Assembly (NCBI RefSeq): GCF_001583435.1
Contig: NZ_CP013251.1
Location: 4,353,215 to 4,417,214 of the forward strand
Source: Endozoicomonas montiporae CL-33
Lineage (GTDB): Bacteria > Pseudomonadota > Gammaproteobacteria > Pseudomonadales > Endozoicomonadaceae
DNA length: 64,000 nucleotides
Reading direction: 5' to 3'
Shown here: positions 2,750 to 62,909 of the stretch, piece after piece
Layout: every line of letters begins with the position of its first letter
Position numbering within the stretch: the first letter of the stretch is position 1
The notes under the pieces: generated by a model
Seen by the model: the letters and a program-made list of their open reading frames with translations, nothing else
What the model was told of the DNA's origin: nothing
Databases searched by the model: none
Translations under genes and position numbers: made by a program

Positions 2750-3634
2750 ATGCCCTGGATACAAATCAGACTTGATACCAATTCCGATCATGCCGCAGAA
2801 CTGGAAGATCTGCTGCTTGAAGCCGGAGCCAGTGCCGTTACCCTACAGGACGGAAAAGATCAGCCACTGCTTGAGCCGGAACCCGGCAGCACCCCGCTCT
2901 GGCACCATACCGTCGTCATCGGCCTGTTCGACGCCCATACCGATATGGAAGCAGTGGTCAGCCAGCTTCAACATCAGTACCAGCGAGAGCCTTTCCCAAA
3001 TCATAAAGTTGAAATTGTGGAAGACAAAGACTGGGAACGTGAATGGATGACCCACTTTGTGCCCATGCAGTTTGGTAAACGGCTGTGGGTTTGCCCGAGC
3101 TGGAAGGAGGTTCCGGAGCCGGACTCTGTGAACCTGATGCTCGATCCGGGTCTGGCTTTTGGTACCGGTACTCATCCAACCACCGCATTATGTCTGGAAT
3201 GGCTGGAAAAGCAGGGCGACCTGTGCGAAAAAACCGTCGTCGATTACGGCTGCGGCTCTGGTATTCTGGCCATTGCAGCCCTGCTGCTGGGTGCCAGACG
3301 CGTCACCGGTGTAGACCTGGACCCGCAGGCTTTGACCGCCACCATCAACAATGCTGAACGAAACAACATTGCTCCGGAAAAACTACAGGTCTTTCTGCCA
3401 GAAAAAGCCCCGCAGGAAACAGTGGACATAGTACTGGCCAATATTCTTGCCGGGCCGCTGGTTCAGCTGGCTCCCACTTTGGCTGACTACCTGAAACCGG
3501 GCGGCAAGATCGCTCTGTCCGGCATTTTGTCTGAACAGACCGACAGCATTGTCAGCACTTACTCTGAATGGTTTGATCTTGAACCGGTTGTGCACAACGA
3601 TGACTGGATTCTGGTAACAGGTACCCGTCGCTGA
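2750..3634 (+). CDS. prmA: Ribosomal protein L11 methyltransferase
   Basis: PrmA trimethylates lysines and the N-terminus of ribosomal protein L11. The 294 residues fit the family. The N-terminal L11-recognition domain (about 1-60) starts MPWIQIRLDTNSD. The Rossmann methyltransferase domain carries the SAM loop DYGCGSGILAIAA near residue 165 and the NILAGPL motif near residue 227. The start lacks an obvious Shine-Dalgarno sequence, but it matches the conserved PrmA N-terminus. A possible -10 box TAGAAT lies at 2681-2686. prmA follows accC as in pseudomonads and may have its own promoter. Confidence 0.95.
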   Translation: MPWIQIRLDTNSDHAAELEDLLLEAGASAVTLQDGKDQPLLEPEPGSTPLWHHTVVIGLFDAHTDMEAVVSQLQHQYQREPFPNHKVEIVEDKDWEREWMTHFVPMQFGKRLWVCPSWKEVPEPDSVNLMLDPGLAFGTGTHPTTALCLEWLEKQGDLCEKTVVDYGCGSGILAIAALLLGARRVTGVDLDPQALTATINNAERNNIAPEKLQVFLPEKAPQETVDIVLANILAGPLVQLAPTLADYLKPGGKIALSGILSEQTDSIVSTYSEWFDLEPVVHNDDWILVTGTRR

Positions 3635-56894: not shown

Positions 56895-58340
56895 ATGAAA
56901 TTGACTCTGCCCCGTTTCGACCAGGCCCGGGTCCTGGTGGTAGGCGACGTAATGCTGGACCGCTACTGGCATGGCGCGACTTCCCGAATCTCACCGGAAG
57001 CACCCGTTCCCGTTGTCCGTATTGGTCAGGTGGAAGATCGCCCCGGCGGTGCCGGTAACGTTGCCCTGAACATTGCTTCACTGGGTGCACCGGCCTGGCT
57101 GATTGCCGCCACCGGTGATGATGAGGCGGCCGATGCCCTGCAAACCCGTCTGGAAGCCGCAGGCGTGTTCTGCGACTTCGCGCGCATGCCCGATGCTCCC
57201 ACCATTACCAAACTGCGAGTGATCAGCCAGCACCAGCAGCTGATTCGCCTGGATCACGAAGAAGCATTCCGTAGCCTGAGCAGCGATATTCTGGAAGAAA
57301 AAACGACAGCGTTACTTGATAACATTGACGCTGTCGTATTGTCCGATTACAACAAAGGCACACTGCAAAATCACCAGCAACTGATTCGCAATGCCCGCAC
57401 CCGCAACATTCCGGTTCTGGTTGATCCCAAAGGCACCGACTTTAAACGTTACCGTGGTGCTACCGTGATCACACCGAATCTGCACGAGTTTGAAACCGTT
57501 GTCGGTCATTGCAAAGACGAACAGGAACTGGTGGATAAAGGCCAGAAGCTGATGCAGGAGCTGGAACTCGAAGCCCTGCTGATTACCCGCAGCGAACACG
57601 GTATGACCCTGATCTGCAAAGACCGTCAGGAAGTTCATCTGCCAGCCCGTGCCCGGGAAGTGTTTGATGTGACCGGAGCCGGTGATACCGTGATTTCCAC
57701 TCTGGCTGCCGCACTGGCAGCGGGTGCAGAACTGCCACAGGCGGCCGCTATTGCCAACATTGCCGCAGGCATTGTGGTGGGCAAGCTGGGTACTGCCACC
57801 ATCAGCATGCCGGAGCTGCGCCGCGAAGTGAACCGCGAGCTGGGTGCTGAACGCGGTGTTGTCACCAAAGATCAGTTGATGATTGCCATTGAAGATGCCC
57901 GCGCTCACGGTGAAAAAATCGTCTTTACCAATGGTTGCTTCGATATCATTCACGCCGGACATGTCGGTTATCTGGAACAGGCTCGCAAACAAGGTGACCG
58001 TCTGGTACTGGCGATTAACAGTGACGAGTCGGTGAAACGCCTGAAAGGCGAAGGTCGCCCGATCAATACGGAAGATCGACGTATGGCAGTATTGGCGGGT
58101 CTGGAAGCCGTTGACTGGGTCGTCAGCTTCAGTGAAGACACCCCCGAAAACCTGCTGCGCATGGTGAAGCCCGACGTACTGGTCAAAGGCGGGGATTACA
58201 GCATTGATGAAGTGGTCGGTGCTGATATCGTTTACGAATACGGCGGTGACGTGAAAGTTCTGGCCTTTCTTGATAACTGTTCAACGACAGCGATCGTTGA
58301 AAAAATCCGTACTGACAAAATAACAGAGGGAACCACCTGA
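56895..58340 (+). CDS. hldE: Bifunctional heptose 7-phosphate kinase / heptose 1-phosphate adenylyltransferase
   Basis: HldE makes ADP-glycero-manno-heptose for the LPS inner core. The 481 residues form two fused domains. The ribokinase-like domain (1-320) has VVGDVMLDRYW, GGAGNVALNIASLG and the catalytic FDVTGAGDT (near 256). The nucleotidyltransferase domain (about 345-475) has VFTNGCFDIIHAGHVGYLEQ with the HxGH motif, and KGGDYSIDEVVGA. It is downstream of msbA and ends at a good terminator. Confidence 0.96.
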   Translation: MKLTLPRFDQARVLVVGDVMLDRYWHGATSRISPEAPVPVVRIGQVEDRPGGAGNVALNIASLGAPAWLIAATGDDEAADALQTRLEAAGVFCDFARMPDAPTITKLRVISQHQQLIRLDHEEAFRSLSSDILEEKTTALLDNIDAVVLSDYNKGTLQNHQQLIRNARTRNIPVLVDPKGTDFKRYRGATVITPNLHEFETVVGHCKDEQELVDKGQKLMQELELEALLITRSEHGMTLICKDRQEVHLPARAREVFDVTGAGDTVISTLAAALAAGAELPQAAAIANIAAGIVVGKLGTATISMPELRREVNRELGAERGVVTKDQLMIAIEDARAHGEKIVFTNGCFDIIHAGHVGYLEQARKQGDRLVLAINSDESVKRLKGEGRPINTEDRRMAVLAGLEAVDWVVSFSEDTPENLLRMVKPDVLVKGGDYSIDEVVGADIVYEYGGDVKVLAFLDNCSTTAIVEKIRTDKITEGTT

Positions 58341-58420: not shown

Positions 58421-58447
58421 GGGAAGGGATTAACTCTTCCCTTTTTT
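58421..58447 (+). terminator. Terminator of hldE
   Basis: GGGAAG pairs with CTTCCC around a 9-base loop, followed by six T. It lies 80 bases after the hldE stop, ahead of the homeodomain gene. This also argues against translation of that gene starting upstream of 58447. Confidence 0.85.
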
Positions 58448-58519: not shown

Positions 58520-60511
58520 ATGGCTTGCTATTTTATCCAACCATGGTTGGCTTTGCGTGCAAGTATCGCTCTTCTGTTAGTGCTATTTACTTGCAAATCT
58601 CAAAGTGATCTGGCTAACCACATTATCAGCTTTACTGCAACAGACTGTACTGCAACAGACTGTACTGCAACAGACTCTACTGCAACAGACTCTACTGCAA
58701 CAGACTCTACTGCAACAGACTCTACTGCAACAGACTCTTCCATTCAGAAAAGCAATGGTTTTTACTGTCTGAAAAAAGACAATAGTCAACACTTCTGCTC
58801 TCTTACTGGTCTGCCGTCGAAAAACACAACGCCTACCTTTGTCAGGGTGCAGTCATCATCGCTCCTGACAGTCAATATAAATAATGATTCTAAAGACCCG
58901 GGTCGTCTGCTCATTAACAATGATGAAATCGTTGTGGTCTCCCTCAATGAACAGCCTGAAACCATTGAACTTAAGCTTCGCGACAAGATTAAACACCTGC
59001 CCGAAAGCCAGACAGACTCGGGCAACAGCTATTGCCAGACTGTTCCTGAACAGGAAGACATTCTGTCTTGTTACATGTATCCCGGAGATACTGTAAGAAT
59101 AAAAACCCCTGCAGAATTGCTGCTGAGCAAAAAAACGCGATATTCTGATACATATGCAGAAATGACAACAGGCGAACCCAAGGACGCGAGCCACCAAACC
59201 TTTCCACCAGATGATTTTACCAATGGCTCTTTTCTTGTGATTAATACAAGAAAGACAACCCCAAGTTCAGAAGAACAGAAGCCACTCCACTCACCTGATA
59301 CATTCATAACAGCACTGGTTACTGCAAAAATGCAGCTATTATTGGAAATGACCGGTAATAATTTACACCACCGAGGACGGTATACAACCGTACCTGATAG
59401 TTTTAATCAAGAGCTATTGCTTTCACCAAAAACAAAATTTCCTGCTTACGACCTGTCCATTAAGCCTGATAAATCCTACACAACTGTTATCACTTATATG
59501 TTTGGAAGCTCTCCACACCAATATGGTGATTCAACTCTTATACTTCTTATTGAATACTATAGAATTCAATACCATATGGACAATCAGCAAGCGGCAGCTG
59601 CAATGAGTTTTGAGCAATACCTGTTAAATGAAATGCGCCAACAAAATCACATTTATACAGAGCAATATATACTTGACCACCTTGCGTATATTAATTGGAT
59701 TCAAGCTTCAGGAGCAACCTTCACCAACATTCAACCACCTACCCCAATCATTGTACCTTATGGCATATGCGGCAAATGCTTACTATCAGGTGCCGCCTGC
59801 ACCTGCACAATACCACAACAACCTGCACTGACACATACGCGCACACCTACAGATGGACACACACATATACGCCATAAACGTAAAAGAGCATTTTTTACTC
59901 CTTCACAAAAAAATAGTCTTTTTAATGCTTTTAAAAAAGATAATTATTTAACCTCAGATGTTCTAGAGGAACTTTGTCAATCGACTGGACTCTCTGAGGT
60001 GCAAGTTACAAACTGGTACAGCAATCAAAGAGTAAAACAAAAAAAAGCTGAGTCTAATTCAAACGCTTCCAATCAGGGTCAAAATACGACCGCACAAAGT
60101 GGAGGGTATTTATCACTTGCACCAACAGTGCAACCGAATATTCCGCCACCAATCATTTCAAATAATACTGTTAGTGTTAGCTCTGAACACGTTGTTCTTC
60201 TAAAACTGAAAAGGCAAGAACCATTCACAACCCGGGAGTTCCCCGACTATCCAGAATCGCCTGCACAGACAACAGCAAACAATGATAATGCTGTGCCAGC
60301 AGCATACATGTATGAATCGAGTTCAAAATCAGGCACTTCTGAGCCAGATGGCAGAAACCCTGCGTCAAGTGAAAGTACAAAATCTGAAAATGAACAAAAT
60401 CAATCACAAAGAGCAATTAAGCCAAGGGAAAAGCCAAATTTTACAAAGGATGGTAAACCTGTCGAAATGGAAGTTAATGAAAACGGTGATATAAATTTCA
60501 AAAGCGTCTAA
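58520..60511 (+). CDS. Exported protein with a homeodomain
   Basis: 663 residues from the ATG at 58520. The frame is open to 58388, but the hldE terminator lies there, and the second copy at 63914 matches from this ATG. Order of parts: hydrophobic signal sequence (1-28, ASIALLLVLFTC); seven TATD(C/S) repeats (39-73); a Cys-containing region of unknown fold (75-240) with paired cysteines; a region with helical stretches (265-400, QYLLNEMRQQNHIYTEQYIL); a CxxC...CxC cluster near 430-442 (CGKCLLSGAACTC); and a homeodomain (452-511). A disordered Ser/Gln/Asn-rich tail of about 150 residues ends it. The homeodomain contains KRKR and KQKK, possible nuclear localisation signals. Base composition differs from neighbours (13 of 60 bases G+C at 59881-59940, against 35 of 60 in hldE at 57661-57720), which suggests foreign origin. 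A host-directed, DNA-binding effector is the best guess, but it is untested. Confidence 0.85.
   Translation: MACYFIQPWLALRASIALLLVLFTCKSQSDLANHIISFTATDCTATDCTATDSTATDSTATDSTATDSTATDSSIQKSNGFYCLKKDNSQHFCSLTGLPSKNTTPTFVRVQSSSLLTVNINNDSKDPGRLLINNDEIVVVSLNEQPETIELKLRDKIKHLPESQTDSGNSYCQTVPEQEDILSCYMYPGDTVRIKTPAELLLSKKTRYSDTYAEMTTGEPKDASHQTFPPDDFTNGSFLVINTRKTTPSSEEQKPLHSPDTFITALVTAKMQLLLEMTGNNLHHRGRYTTVPDSFNQELLLSPKTKFPAYDLSIKPDKSYTTVITYMFGSSPHQYGDSTLILLIEYYRIQYHMDNQQAAAAMSFEQYLLNEMRQQNHIYTEQYILDHLAYINWIQASGATFTNIQPPTPIIVPYGICGKCLLSGAACTCTIPQQPALTHTRTPTDGHTHIRHKRKRAFFTPSQKNSLFNAFKKDNYLTSDVLEELCQSTGLSEVQVTNWYSNQRVKQKKAESNSNASNQGQNTTAQSGGYLSLAPTVQPNIPPPIISNNTVSVSSEHVVLLKLKRQEPFTTREFPDYPESPAQTTANNDNAVPAAYMYESSSKSGTSEPDGRNPASSESTKSENEQNQSQRAIKPREKPNFTKDGKPVEMEVNENGDINFKSV
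58634..58738 (+). repeat. Seven 15-bp in-frame repeats near the start of the homeodomain gene
   Basis: ACTGCAACAGACTGT occurs twice and ACTGCAACAGACTCT five times, encoding TATDC and TATDS units. The unit length keeps the frame, so copy number can vary without loss of the protein. The repeat lies right after the signal sequence and resembles a length-variable stalk. Confidence 0.95.
59873..60052 (+). other. Homeobox (60-codon homeodomain segment)
   Basis: Numbering the Trp of NWYSNQR as homeodomain position 48, the segment fits the 60-residue fold without a gap: Arg5, Phe8, Gln12, Leu16, Phe20, Tyr25, Leu40, Gln44, Val45, Trp48, Tyr49 (usually Phe), Asn51, Arg53, Lys55 and Lys57. Asn51 is the invariant base-contacting residue. 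Asn47 with Trp48 (TNW) recalls PBX/TALE or HNF1 types, but the TALE three-residue loop insertion is absent. Residue 50 is Ser, as in some paired-class domains. The basic N-terminal arm RHKRKR matches minor-groove arms. Confidence 0.88.
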
Positions 60512-60970: not shown

Positions 60971-61732
60971 TTATTTCTTGGCAGAAGTGCCTTTCAGTAA
61001 TCCAGCTTTGCGCTTCTCTTTCAGGCGGTAACTCTCACCTTTGATATTGAGAGTTGTCGCATGATGCAGTAGCCGATCCAAGATCGCAGTGGCTATGGCT
61101 TGATCGCCAAAGATCTCGCCCCAGTCGACAAAGCTCTTATTCGAGGTCAGGATGATACTTGCCTTTTCGTAACGGCGAGTCACGAGTCGGAAGAAAAGGC
61201 TGGCTTCATCCTGATCCATAGGAAGGTAGCCAATTTCATCCAGTACCAGCAGCTTTGGGTACATCAGTTGCTGCATCTGTCTTTCAAGCCGGTTCTCCTG
61301 CAACGCTTTTTTCAGCGTAGTCATCAGCTTGTCGAGGCTCATGAACATAACCCGATGTCCGGCTTCTGCTGCCTTAACAGCCAGAGCTATTGCCAGATGT
61401 GTTTTACCAACACCTGGCGGTCCGAGTAATACGACATTTTCAGCACGATCAACAAAACCAAGACCGGAGAGTTCCCGAACCACTTTTCGGTCAACGGTCG
61501 GCTGAAAGCTGTAGTCAAACTGCTCTAATGTTTTTAGCCATGGTAACCGGGCTTGCTTTAGACGACTCTCAAGCCCTTTCTGGTGACGGCCAGCCCACTC
61601 AGTAGAAAGCACTTCTACCAGGAACTCCCGGTAATTCAGGTCTTTCTTGCTGGCTTGCTCACACAGGGTATCAAGGTTGTCAGCCAGGTGGTCAAGCTTA
61701 AGGCGATTGACCAGTGTCGTTAACTGTTCCAT
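60971..61732 (-). CDS. istB: IS21-family helper ATPase IstB
   Basis: IstB is the AAA+ regulator that assembles with the IstA transposase on target DNA. It has 253 residues from the ATG at 61732 (GTG 61735 gives 254). Walker A GPPGVGKTHLAIALA lies near 103, Walker B LLVLDEIGYLPMD near 165, and the SNKSFVDWGEIFGD segment near 198. The C-terminus LKEKRKAGLLKG is typical. Its start overlaps the istA stop (TGATG), so it is translated by coupling. Confidence 0.94.
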   Translation of the reverse strand: MEQLTTLVNRLKLDHLADNLDTLCEQASKKDLNYREFLVEVLSTEWAGRHQKGLESRLKQARLPWLKTLEQFDYSFQPTVDRKVVRELSGLGFVDRAENVVLLGPPGVGKTHLAIALAVKAAEAGHRVMFMSLDKLMTTLKKALQENRLERQMQQLMYPKLLVLDEIGYLPMDQDEASLFFRLVTRRYEKASIILTSNKSFVDWGEIFGDQAIATAILDRLLHHATTLNIKGESYRLKEKRKAGLLKGTSAKK

Positions 61733-62909
61733 CACACCACCTCCTCATAATGGCTGAGGTCACGGGTTTCAACCTTGATCTCGTCATACAGGGCACGGTG
61801 GTGGGTGGCGTCGAGTACCCAGCGGTTCTTTGCGTCAACCAGCAGATGGCTGGCAACGAGGGTATCGTCCGGGCCATAAACCCGTAGCTGCCGGTCAAGT
61901 CCCATGCGGATACTGACTTGCTGACCAACCAAAGTACTGGGAACACTGTAGCGATTCGTCTTAAAATTAATGTAACCATCAACCGGCACACGTCGTGTTT
62001 CCCGGTAGCTGGTGTCATAACGAATATCCGGTAGCTTTTGAAGGTGCGGCTGTTCTTTAGCAAAGCGTCAGCCACTTTTTCTTTCAGAGTGTCATGATGG
62101 CGTTCATCTGCTACGTTGGTCAGCCAGTCTCCCAGTTGCTGGTTCAAGTGCTCAAGGCTTTCAAAGCTGCGATAGCGCTGGAAGAAGTTTTCTTTTACGT
62201 AGCGCACCATACGCTCGGTTTTTCCCTTGGTCTGTGCTCTGTAGGGTTTGCAGGCTTTAGGCTGAAACTCGTAGTGTCGAGACAACAACAGAAAACCTTC
62301 ATTAAACTTCACCTGTCCGTTACCAGGATGCTCCAGAACTGCAGCCTTCTGGTTATCAACCAGTACCTGCGCACTTGAACCCCCGAACCACTCGAACGCC
62401 CGGATCAGGCTTTCATAAGTGTGTTCCGCATCATTGCTGTAAGCAGCAAAGGCATAGAAGCGGCGTGAGTAGCCCAGAACATTAACGGAGACATAAACTT
62501 TGCGAAGCTCACCTCCAACTTCGATCTGCAGTTCTCCCCAGTCGTGCTGCAACTGGTGACCGGGAGCCGTTTCATAACGGGTGGTCGCCTTGCTTTCACG
62601 CAGGGTGCGTTTAGGGTGGATATAGTCCCGTAAAATGGTGATGCCACCGGCATATCCCTGCCCTTTGATTTCGGCAAATATGACCTCGGCATTCCAGACA
62701 TTCTCAGCCAGTAACGCGTCAATGACGGATTTGAAATCATCAAGCTTACTCTGGCGAACACCGGATTTGCGTCTGGGTGGTGGCCCTTGCCTTTGCAGGG
62801 CTCTCTTGACGGTACTGACAGAGCAACCTCTCTGGCAGGCAATGTCCTCAAGATAGCAGCCTTTGTCTCTGGCTTGCTTTATCATAAGGTAGTCCTCTCG
62901 GTTGATCAT
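61732..62909 (-). pseudogene. istA: IS21-family transposase IstA, frameshifted
   Basis: The N-terminal part (from 62909) has a helix-turn-helix (CYLEDIACQRGCSVSTVKRA) and a DDE core: HDWGELQIEVGG (first Asp), QVLVDNQKAAVL (second Asp) and KGKTERMVRYVKENFF (Glu). Near 62053-62060 the frame is lost by one base. The -1 frame continues as EQPHLQKLPDIRYDTSYRET, then VPVDGYINFKTNRYSVPS, to the true C-terminus at 61732. The shift lies at CTA-AAG, which could in principle be a -1 slip site, but a one-base deletion is the simpler reading. Confidence 0.88.

Follow-up and report, generated by a model that had tools for sequence, protein, structure and literature searches.

The homeodomain is the textbook DNA-binding domain of eukaryotic development. 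Bacterial proteins that act in the nucleus of the host are called nucleomodulins, and to our knowledge none of them contains a homeodomain. Reviews on nucleomodulins are available (PMC7232420 and PMC7819608). The TAL effectors of Xanthomonas, which are delivered by type III secretion, read DNA with repeats of 34 residues. Animal-type proteins are also described for the bacterial family analysed here. The available parts of the Endozoicomonas montiporae genome paper report two genes for ephrin-like proteins with a proposed action on host receptors (PMC4781883), and the apoptosis inhibitors of Candidatus Endonucleibacter, of the same family, are proposed to act on caspases in the available parts of PMC12491435. 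The string 'homeo' is absent from these parts of both papers and appears once in PMC13286007, as homeostasis, and in the available part of PMC4557100 'homeobox' is confined to the reference list. No bacterial homeodomain was described by title among the matches listed in the literature searched, with subscription papers and preprints outside its scope. This agrees with an earlier reading made from the letters of the present locus (the sequence-only reading), which knew of no bacterial protein class with a true homeodomain.

The homeodomain gene and its genomic slot

The window is a stretch of 64,000 nucleotides from the genome of E. montiporae CL-33. At positions 59873-60052 of the forward strand, 60 codons translate without a stop into the segment that the sequence-only reading had called a true homeodomain. 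Profile, sequence and predicted fold all back this call. The residues R5, F8, Q12, L16, F20, Y25, L40, Q44, V45, W48, N51, R53, K55 and K57 are found at the positions that had been assigned to them, and position 49 is a tyrosine, as had been noted. In an HMM search, the segment aligned to positions 1-57 of the 57 positions of PF00046 with 52.8 bits against a cut-off of 22.9, at residues 453-509 of the protein. The E-value of 3.5e-14 obtained with the whole protein dropped to 3.5e-16 with the segment alone, and no match above the cut-off was obtained in any of 14 control genomes. Structure prediction gave helices at 10-22, 28-38 and 42-59 with a mean pLDDT of 92.8, so that the predicted model has the three-helix fold with its long third helix. 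A PDB sequence search led to DUX4, engrailed, BARX1 and HOX proteins, and Foldseek and VIA-align led to DUX4, HOXB13, Paired and PAX3. The domain is not of the TALE type since it has 60 residues, no loop extension and an alignment to every PF00046 position; its PF05920 score is borderline, with 22.2 bits for the whole protein against a cut-off of 24 and 27.8 bits for the segment alone. Apart from the homeodomain families, the protein had no Pfam match. DNA binding by this homeodomain is well supported by its sequence.

The gene, here called copy 1, extends from 58520 to 60511 on the forward strand and encodes 663 amino acids plus the stop, with AGGT upstream of the start. The mechanical open reading frame begins further upstream at TTG 58388. 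Because a terminator-like hairpin followed by T6 (58421-58441, forward strand, 8 pairs with 5 GC, consensus match) lies within this extension, between the hldE-like gene and the homeodomain gene, and because the start MACYFIQPW is common to the three copies in their alignment, ATG 58520 was taken as the start. Residues 1-29 (58520-58606, forward strand) form a predicted Sec signal peptide, or a membrane anchor, with a hydrophobic stretch from residue 10. This signal-like N-terminus, MACYFIQPWLALRASIALLLVLFTCKSQS, has a mean hydropathy of 2.25 over 15 residues, is identical in the alignment of copies 1-3 and shows no canonical lipobox by eye. Sec export of the protein is plausible, as predicted from hydropathy and conservation.

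The signal peptide is followed by an in-frame tandem repeat of 15 bases with TATDS/TATDC units at 58633-58738 (forward strand), detected by TRF at 3348-3453 of locus L033 and converted to window coordinates. The repeat number varies among the paralogs, with 7.1 in copy 1 and 5.1 in copy 3 by TRF and about one unit in copy 2 by alignment, and the repeat is possibly a length-varying linker. The remainder of the N-terminal module (58739-59866, forward strand) had no Pfam match, and a 304-residue query matched the three copies only, in 1 of 37 family genomes, with no relative in the 36 others. Its structure model was unusable (pLDDT 37.7), and the module was therefore left out of the fold searches. 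Behind the homeodomain, the C-terminal tail (60053-60511, forward strand) had no Pfam match and, by eye, contains many Ser, Asn, Gln and Pro residues.

The left border of the locus is formed by an hldE-like gene with PfkB and cytidylyltransferase domains by Pfam (56895-58340, forward strand). This gene and the aldo/keto reductase gene on the other side of the homeodomain cluster are close neighbours, sharing a contig, in all ten genomes of the genus. By match coordinates, the gap between them is 12.5 kb in the window genome. It is empty in G008 (99 bases) and G009 (222 bases) and measures 1.5-4 kb in the other seven genomes, where it is occupied by other proteins. Since this slot holds other proteins or nothing across the genus, the homeodomain cluster is accessory DNA in a variable site. 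Among the other slot proteins, L050 and L051 have signal-like N-termini by eye, and L053, L054, L055 and L058 belong to one family of 443-468 residues, next to others. Seven of the eight slot proteins searched had no Pfam match above the cut-off, and the eighth is PilJ-like.

Three copies and their divergence

PF00046 was matched above the cut-off three times in the window genome, a single contig of 5,430,256 bases with an estimated completeness of 100% and 1.96% contamination. All three matches are in one cluster, with copies 2 and 3 just beyond the window, and the frames of the three copies are open across 663, 613 and 666 codons. The cluster genes have 40-42% GC, and the genome GC is given as 48.37% in the available part of PMC4781883. 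Copies 1 and 2 are separated by an IS21-type element on the reverse strand (60971-62909; IstB PF01695 with 302 bits, PF00665 and PF22483). Its integrase gene seems split over two frames.

Up to roughly alignment column 330, the three proteins are near-identical. The second half of copy 3 has diverged and has its own homeodomain, with a dS of 0.33-0.90 compared to 0.01-0.03 upstream. This switch is a recombination-like pattern.

By path counting in the one pair of copies 1 and 2, the 60 codons of the homeodomain differ by 28.5 nonsynonymous and 0.5 synonymous substitutions (dN 0.230, dS 0.014), whereas the other stretches of the gene have a dN of 0.014-0.066, plus length differences. The excess of replacements in the homeodomain over the remainder of the gene was significant (Fisher p 1.2e-12), and silent changes were below expectation (binomial p 0.012 for at most 1 of 29). 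Codon by codon, the domains differ at 22 codons, of which two (41 and 60, gapless pairing) keep the residue. The codon switch at Ser41 was scored as two replacements since each path runs through another residue. The changed positions include 6, 46, 47, 54, 55 and 57, which we take to be DNA-contact positions, and W48, S50, N51 and R53 are unchanged. The substitutions are not adenine-specific, and we therefore rejected the idea that a diversity-generating retroelement had caused the changes.

An imported old domain would bring silent differences, and this pair is thus most simply read as a case of selection for change. The divergence of copies 1 and 2 thus points to selection for a new DNA specificity, in this pair only. 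Selection, which the sequence-only reading had proposed as selection for DNA binding, was supported by copies 1 and 2 but did not extend to the domain in two ortholog and two paralog sets of other genomes, which shows no such signal. There, the dN/dS of the homeodomain was 0.14-1.26 in two sets of three orthologs and 0.44-0.73 in two sets of three paralogs. The highest dN/dS, 1.9-3.4 in one ortholog set, was found 5' of the homeodomain, outside the domain.

Distribution and origin of the bacterial homeodomains

Above the cut-off, PF00046 was found in 16 of the 37 family genomes, covering 4 of 8 genus codes with 33 matches, and in the remaining 21 no match was obtained. W48, N51 and R53 are kept in 32 of the 33 matches, the exception being the match in G005. 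In wider samples, the window genome was the only one with a match among 369 genomes of the class and among 398 genomes of the phylum. Eight of 390 genomes of the order were matched, seven of them from the Endozoicomonadaceae and one, G876, from another family. An alignment of 20 rows (A1) had been selected by the motif W-x-x-[NQ]-x-R, so its invariant columns are partly invariant by construction, and it was too loose for scanning contigs. The scan was done with a stricter pattern (alignment A2) and confirmed 5 of 38 stretches, giving at least five loci, which is a lower bound because the pattern is strict. They belong to Sansalvadorimonas verongulae, Endozoicomonas sp. YOMI1, Endozoicomonas sp. 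SESOKO1, E. acroporae Acr-14 and a record titled Salinisphaera sp. G21_0. Of three protein-database searches, two scored only the candidates with the most words in common, which were probably of low complexity, and yielded three proteins and one protein. The third returned a protein of S. verongulae, named hypothetical by its source, and VENTX of a bird.

A signal-like N-terminus precedes the homeodomain in nine genes, namely copies 1-3, the G005 gene, the sub-threshold G007 gene and both genes each of G019 and G876, so that two of the nine belong to another family. The N-termini of the G019 and G876 genes have a hydropathy of 1.67-2.27, and the G006 gene is intermediate with 1.40. The export signal that the sequence-only reading had seen was thus recovered as a predicted signal peptide in copies 1-3 but is not general. 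In genus codes g5 and g7, the homeodomain genes that were scored have polar N-termini without a hydrophobic stretch (hydropathy at most 1.06), several of their starts being uncertain. These proteins might travel by a type III system. The window genome itself carries a type III secretin and two GspD-type secretins, all above their cut-offs.

In G876, two homeodomains (PF00046, 1.1e-24) and a signal-like N-terminus are encoded by an open reading frame of 513 residues, which lies beside a gene that is comEC-like as judged by eye. A second gene encodes a 120-residue protein with a signal-like N-terminus and a homeodomain that has a histidine at position 51 (loci L065-L067). N51 is kept in one of the three G876 domains and lost in the two others, as well as in G005 and G007. 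The G005 and G007 proteins (L019 and L020) are signal-bearing and alike by eye, with a homeodomain-like segment that lacks Asn51 and may serve something else than DNA reading. Another gene, L034 of G057, combines two different homeodomains within one frame of 398 residues.

A profile of the window-type domains best matches engrailed, DUX4, BarH, Dlx and other animal homeodomains, and one S. verongulae domain shares 49% identity with bird VENTX. In G025, two genes (L069 and L070) score 50.1 and 53.4 bits with PF05920 (cut-off 24) and have PBX1 as the best PDB match. L070 partly reads as masked or unknown. TALE and non-TALE homeodomains parted early in eukaryotes. As the family has both the window type and a TALE type, convergence is unlikely and eukaryotic homeodomains were probably captured at least twice, the window homeodomain likely being one of those captured from a eukaryote. 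Of the two origins that the sequence-only reading had offered, an animal host or evolution toward the same fold, the animal best matches and the PBX/TALE-type domains of the relative thus favour capture from eukaryotes, with 60 columns being too few to name the donor. In a tree of 47 rows over these 60 columns, 28 of the 44 inner branches were open, and a single clade of the bacterial rows was neither rejected (p-AU 0.09) nor shown. A plasmid, phage or viral origin was discarded: the window protein had no match in plasmids and phages, and a scan of viral contigs with a strict WFQN pattern gave 10 stretches of which none was confirmed.

A possible role in the host nucleus and comparison with known systems

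The reading that we favour, with somewhat better than even confidence, is that the window gene joins a captured homeodomain to a predicted Sec signal and that its product would be an exported effector that enters host nuclei and binds host DNA. The bacterium is likely a coral symbiont. In the proposed mechanism, the predicted Sec signal peptide would export the protein, and the basic ends of the homeodomain, KRKR and RVKQKK, which are NLS-like by eye, could drive its nuclear import. The homeodomain would then bind a TAAT-like core, R5 contacting the minor and N51 the major groove. Position 50 of Paired-type homeodomains tunes the preference for the flanking bases, and Ser50 may tune the reading of the flank in the same manner. 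The low-complexity tail might compete with host regulators or recruit them, separate copies would read separate sites and the transcription of the host would be altered by the bound protein. The ephrin-domain genes and the type III and GspD-type secretins of the window genome were counted in favour of the host-directed reading. A Sec signal by itself leads to the periplasm, and we counted this against it, together with the N-termini of the g5, g7 and G006 genes, the 21 family genomes that gave no match, the domains that have lost N51 and the selection signal coming from one pair.

Two other readings keep the homeodomain functional and were rated lower. The domain could act inside the bacterium on bacterial promoters, with the hydrophobic N-terminus as a membrane anchor. 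The g5 and g7 relatives without a hydrophobic N-terminus could indeed work in the cytoplasm, and anchoring is conceivable for the N-terminus of the window protein. However, an N-terminal anchor in the orientation usual for Sec places what follows in the periplasm, and an anchored homeodomain would sit there. The genes are also patchy and multi-copy, and their first half was matched in none of the 36 other family genomes. In the relatives, the slot is empty or filled with other proteins, and signal-like N-termini before homeodomains recur in another family. We regard such a bacterial regulator as unlikely. Nor do we give much weight to a secreted protein that binds DNA outside the cells or at the bacterial surface, for instance extracellular DNA or DNA during uptake, with no role in a nucleus. 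The signal-like N-terminus would fit, as would the comEC-like gene adjoining one of the G876 genes, but such a neighbour was met once among the neighbourhoods inspected. Bulk DNA binding would not require the change seen in the cluster, which is focused in the sequence-reading domain while the recognition residues are kept.

It is very improbable that the genes are host fragments in decay that have no present function. Their patchy presence among the family genomes, the loss of N51 in G005, G007 and two G876 domains and the insertion sequence inside the cluster would suit such a state. Against it stand the three open frames of the window genome, the replacement-only change between copies 1 and 2 and the retention of W48, N51 and R53 in 32 of 33 matches. 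Contamination by eukaryotic DNA, or an ordinary bacterial helix-turn-helix that resembles a homeodomain by chance, has a negligible probability and was rejected. Several relatives have assemblies broken into hundreds of contigs, yet the single-contig genomes G000, G030 and G031 carry homeodomain genes, and a separate record of 1,015,541 bases contains the C-terminal 386 residues of copy 3. PF00046 scores reach 77.3 bits, and the controls had no match. The three copies lie on one contig, and contamination is excluded since 16 of 37 family genomes carry homeodomains and the inspected neighbourhoods are bacterial. By eye, these contain an ABC transporter set at L036, a sensor kinase and a radical-SAM protein at L038, a DNA polymerase II-like gene and an acyl-CoA ligase at L039, and lexA-like and mscS-like genes at L067; the neighbourhood of L066 is bacterial as well.

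For the family as a whole, we see an even chance that marine animal symbionts among the Endozoicomonadaceae repeatedly captured ANTP/PRD-like and TALE-like homeodomains on changing delivery modules, diversify their DNA-reading residues under selection and reprogram the cells of corals and sponges with them. The window genome has two ephrin-domain genes (PF00812, above cut-off), the counterparts of the two ephrin-like genes in the genome paper (PMC4781883). Ephrin-domain genes were found in 5 of the 37 family genomes, all of the window's genus, with nine matches in one of them, several clustered.

A bacterial family with tandem, intact homeodomains, one pair of which was apparently selected to change, suggests that a symbiont could act directly on the control of developmental genes in its host. 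The genes offer a concrete molecular handle on the relation of Endozoicomonas to corals and sponges, and the copies are a natural experiment on the evolution of homeodomain specificity. If the reading for the family is true, bacteria have a set of homeobox transcription factors aimed at their hosts.

The closest likeness is to the animal homeodomains HOXB13, Paired, BARHL2, engrailed and DUX4, which we take to be of the ANTP/PRD class. The window domain aligns to them without a gap over 60 residues and three helices and keeps W48, N51, R53 and R5. Its identity is 30-42% in the Foldseek matches listed, and it is too diverged for a donor class. Unlike the animal domains, it belongs to a bacterial protein and follows a predicted signal peptide, and no other animal domain was found by Pfam in this protein. 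Likeness to the PBX/TALE homeodomains is limited to the two G025 genes, the window domain having no loop extension. Like the nucleomodulins, the window protein is bacterial, as its gene lies on a single contig in three copies and has relatives; it is predicted to be exported and, by its sequence, to bind DNA, and its action in the nucleus would complete the likeness. It resembles the TAL effectors in that these are sequence-specific bacterial DNA-binding proteins aimed at host promoters, as is proposed here. In contrast to them, it has a homeodomain and a Sec-type signal, and the sole tandem repeat in copy 1 is the unit of 15 bases, not an array of 34-residue repeats. The ephrin-like proteins and apoptosis inhibitors are likewise animal-type proteins of this bacterial family, and the homeodomain proteins carry a DNA-binding domain instead. 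Taken together, neither the domain nor host-directed DNA-binding effectors as a kind are new, whereas their combination appears to be so.
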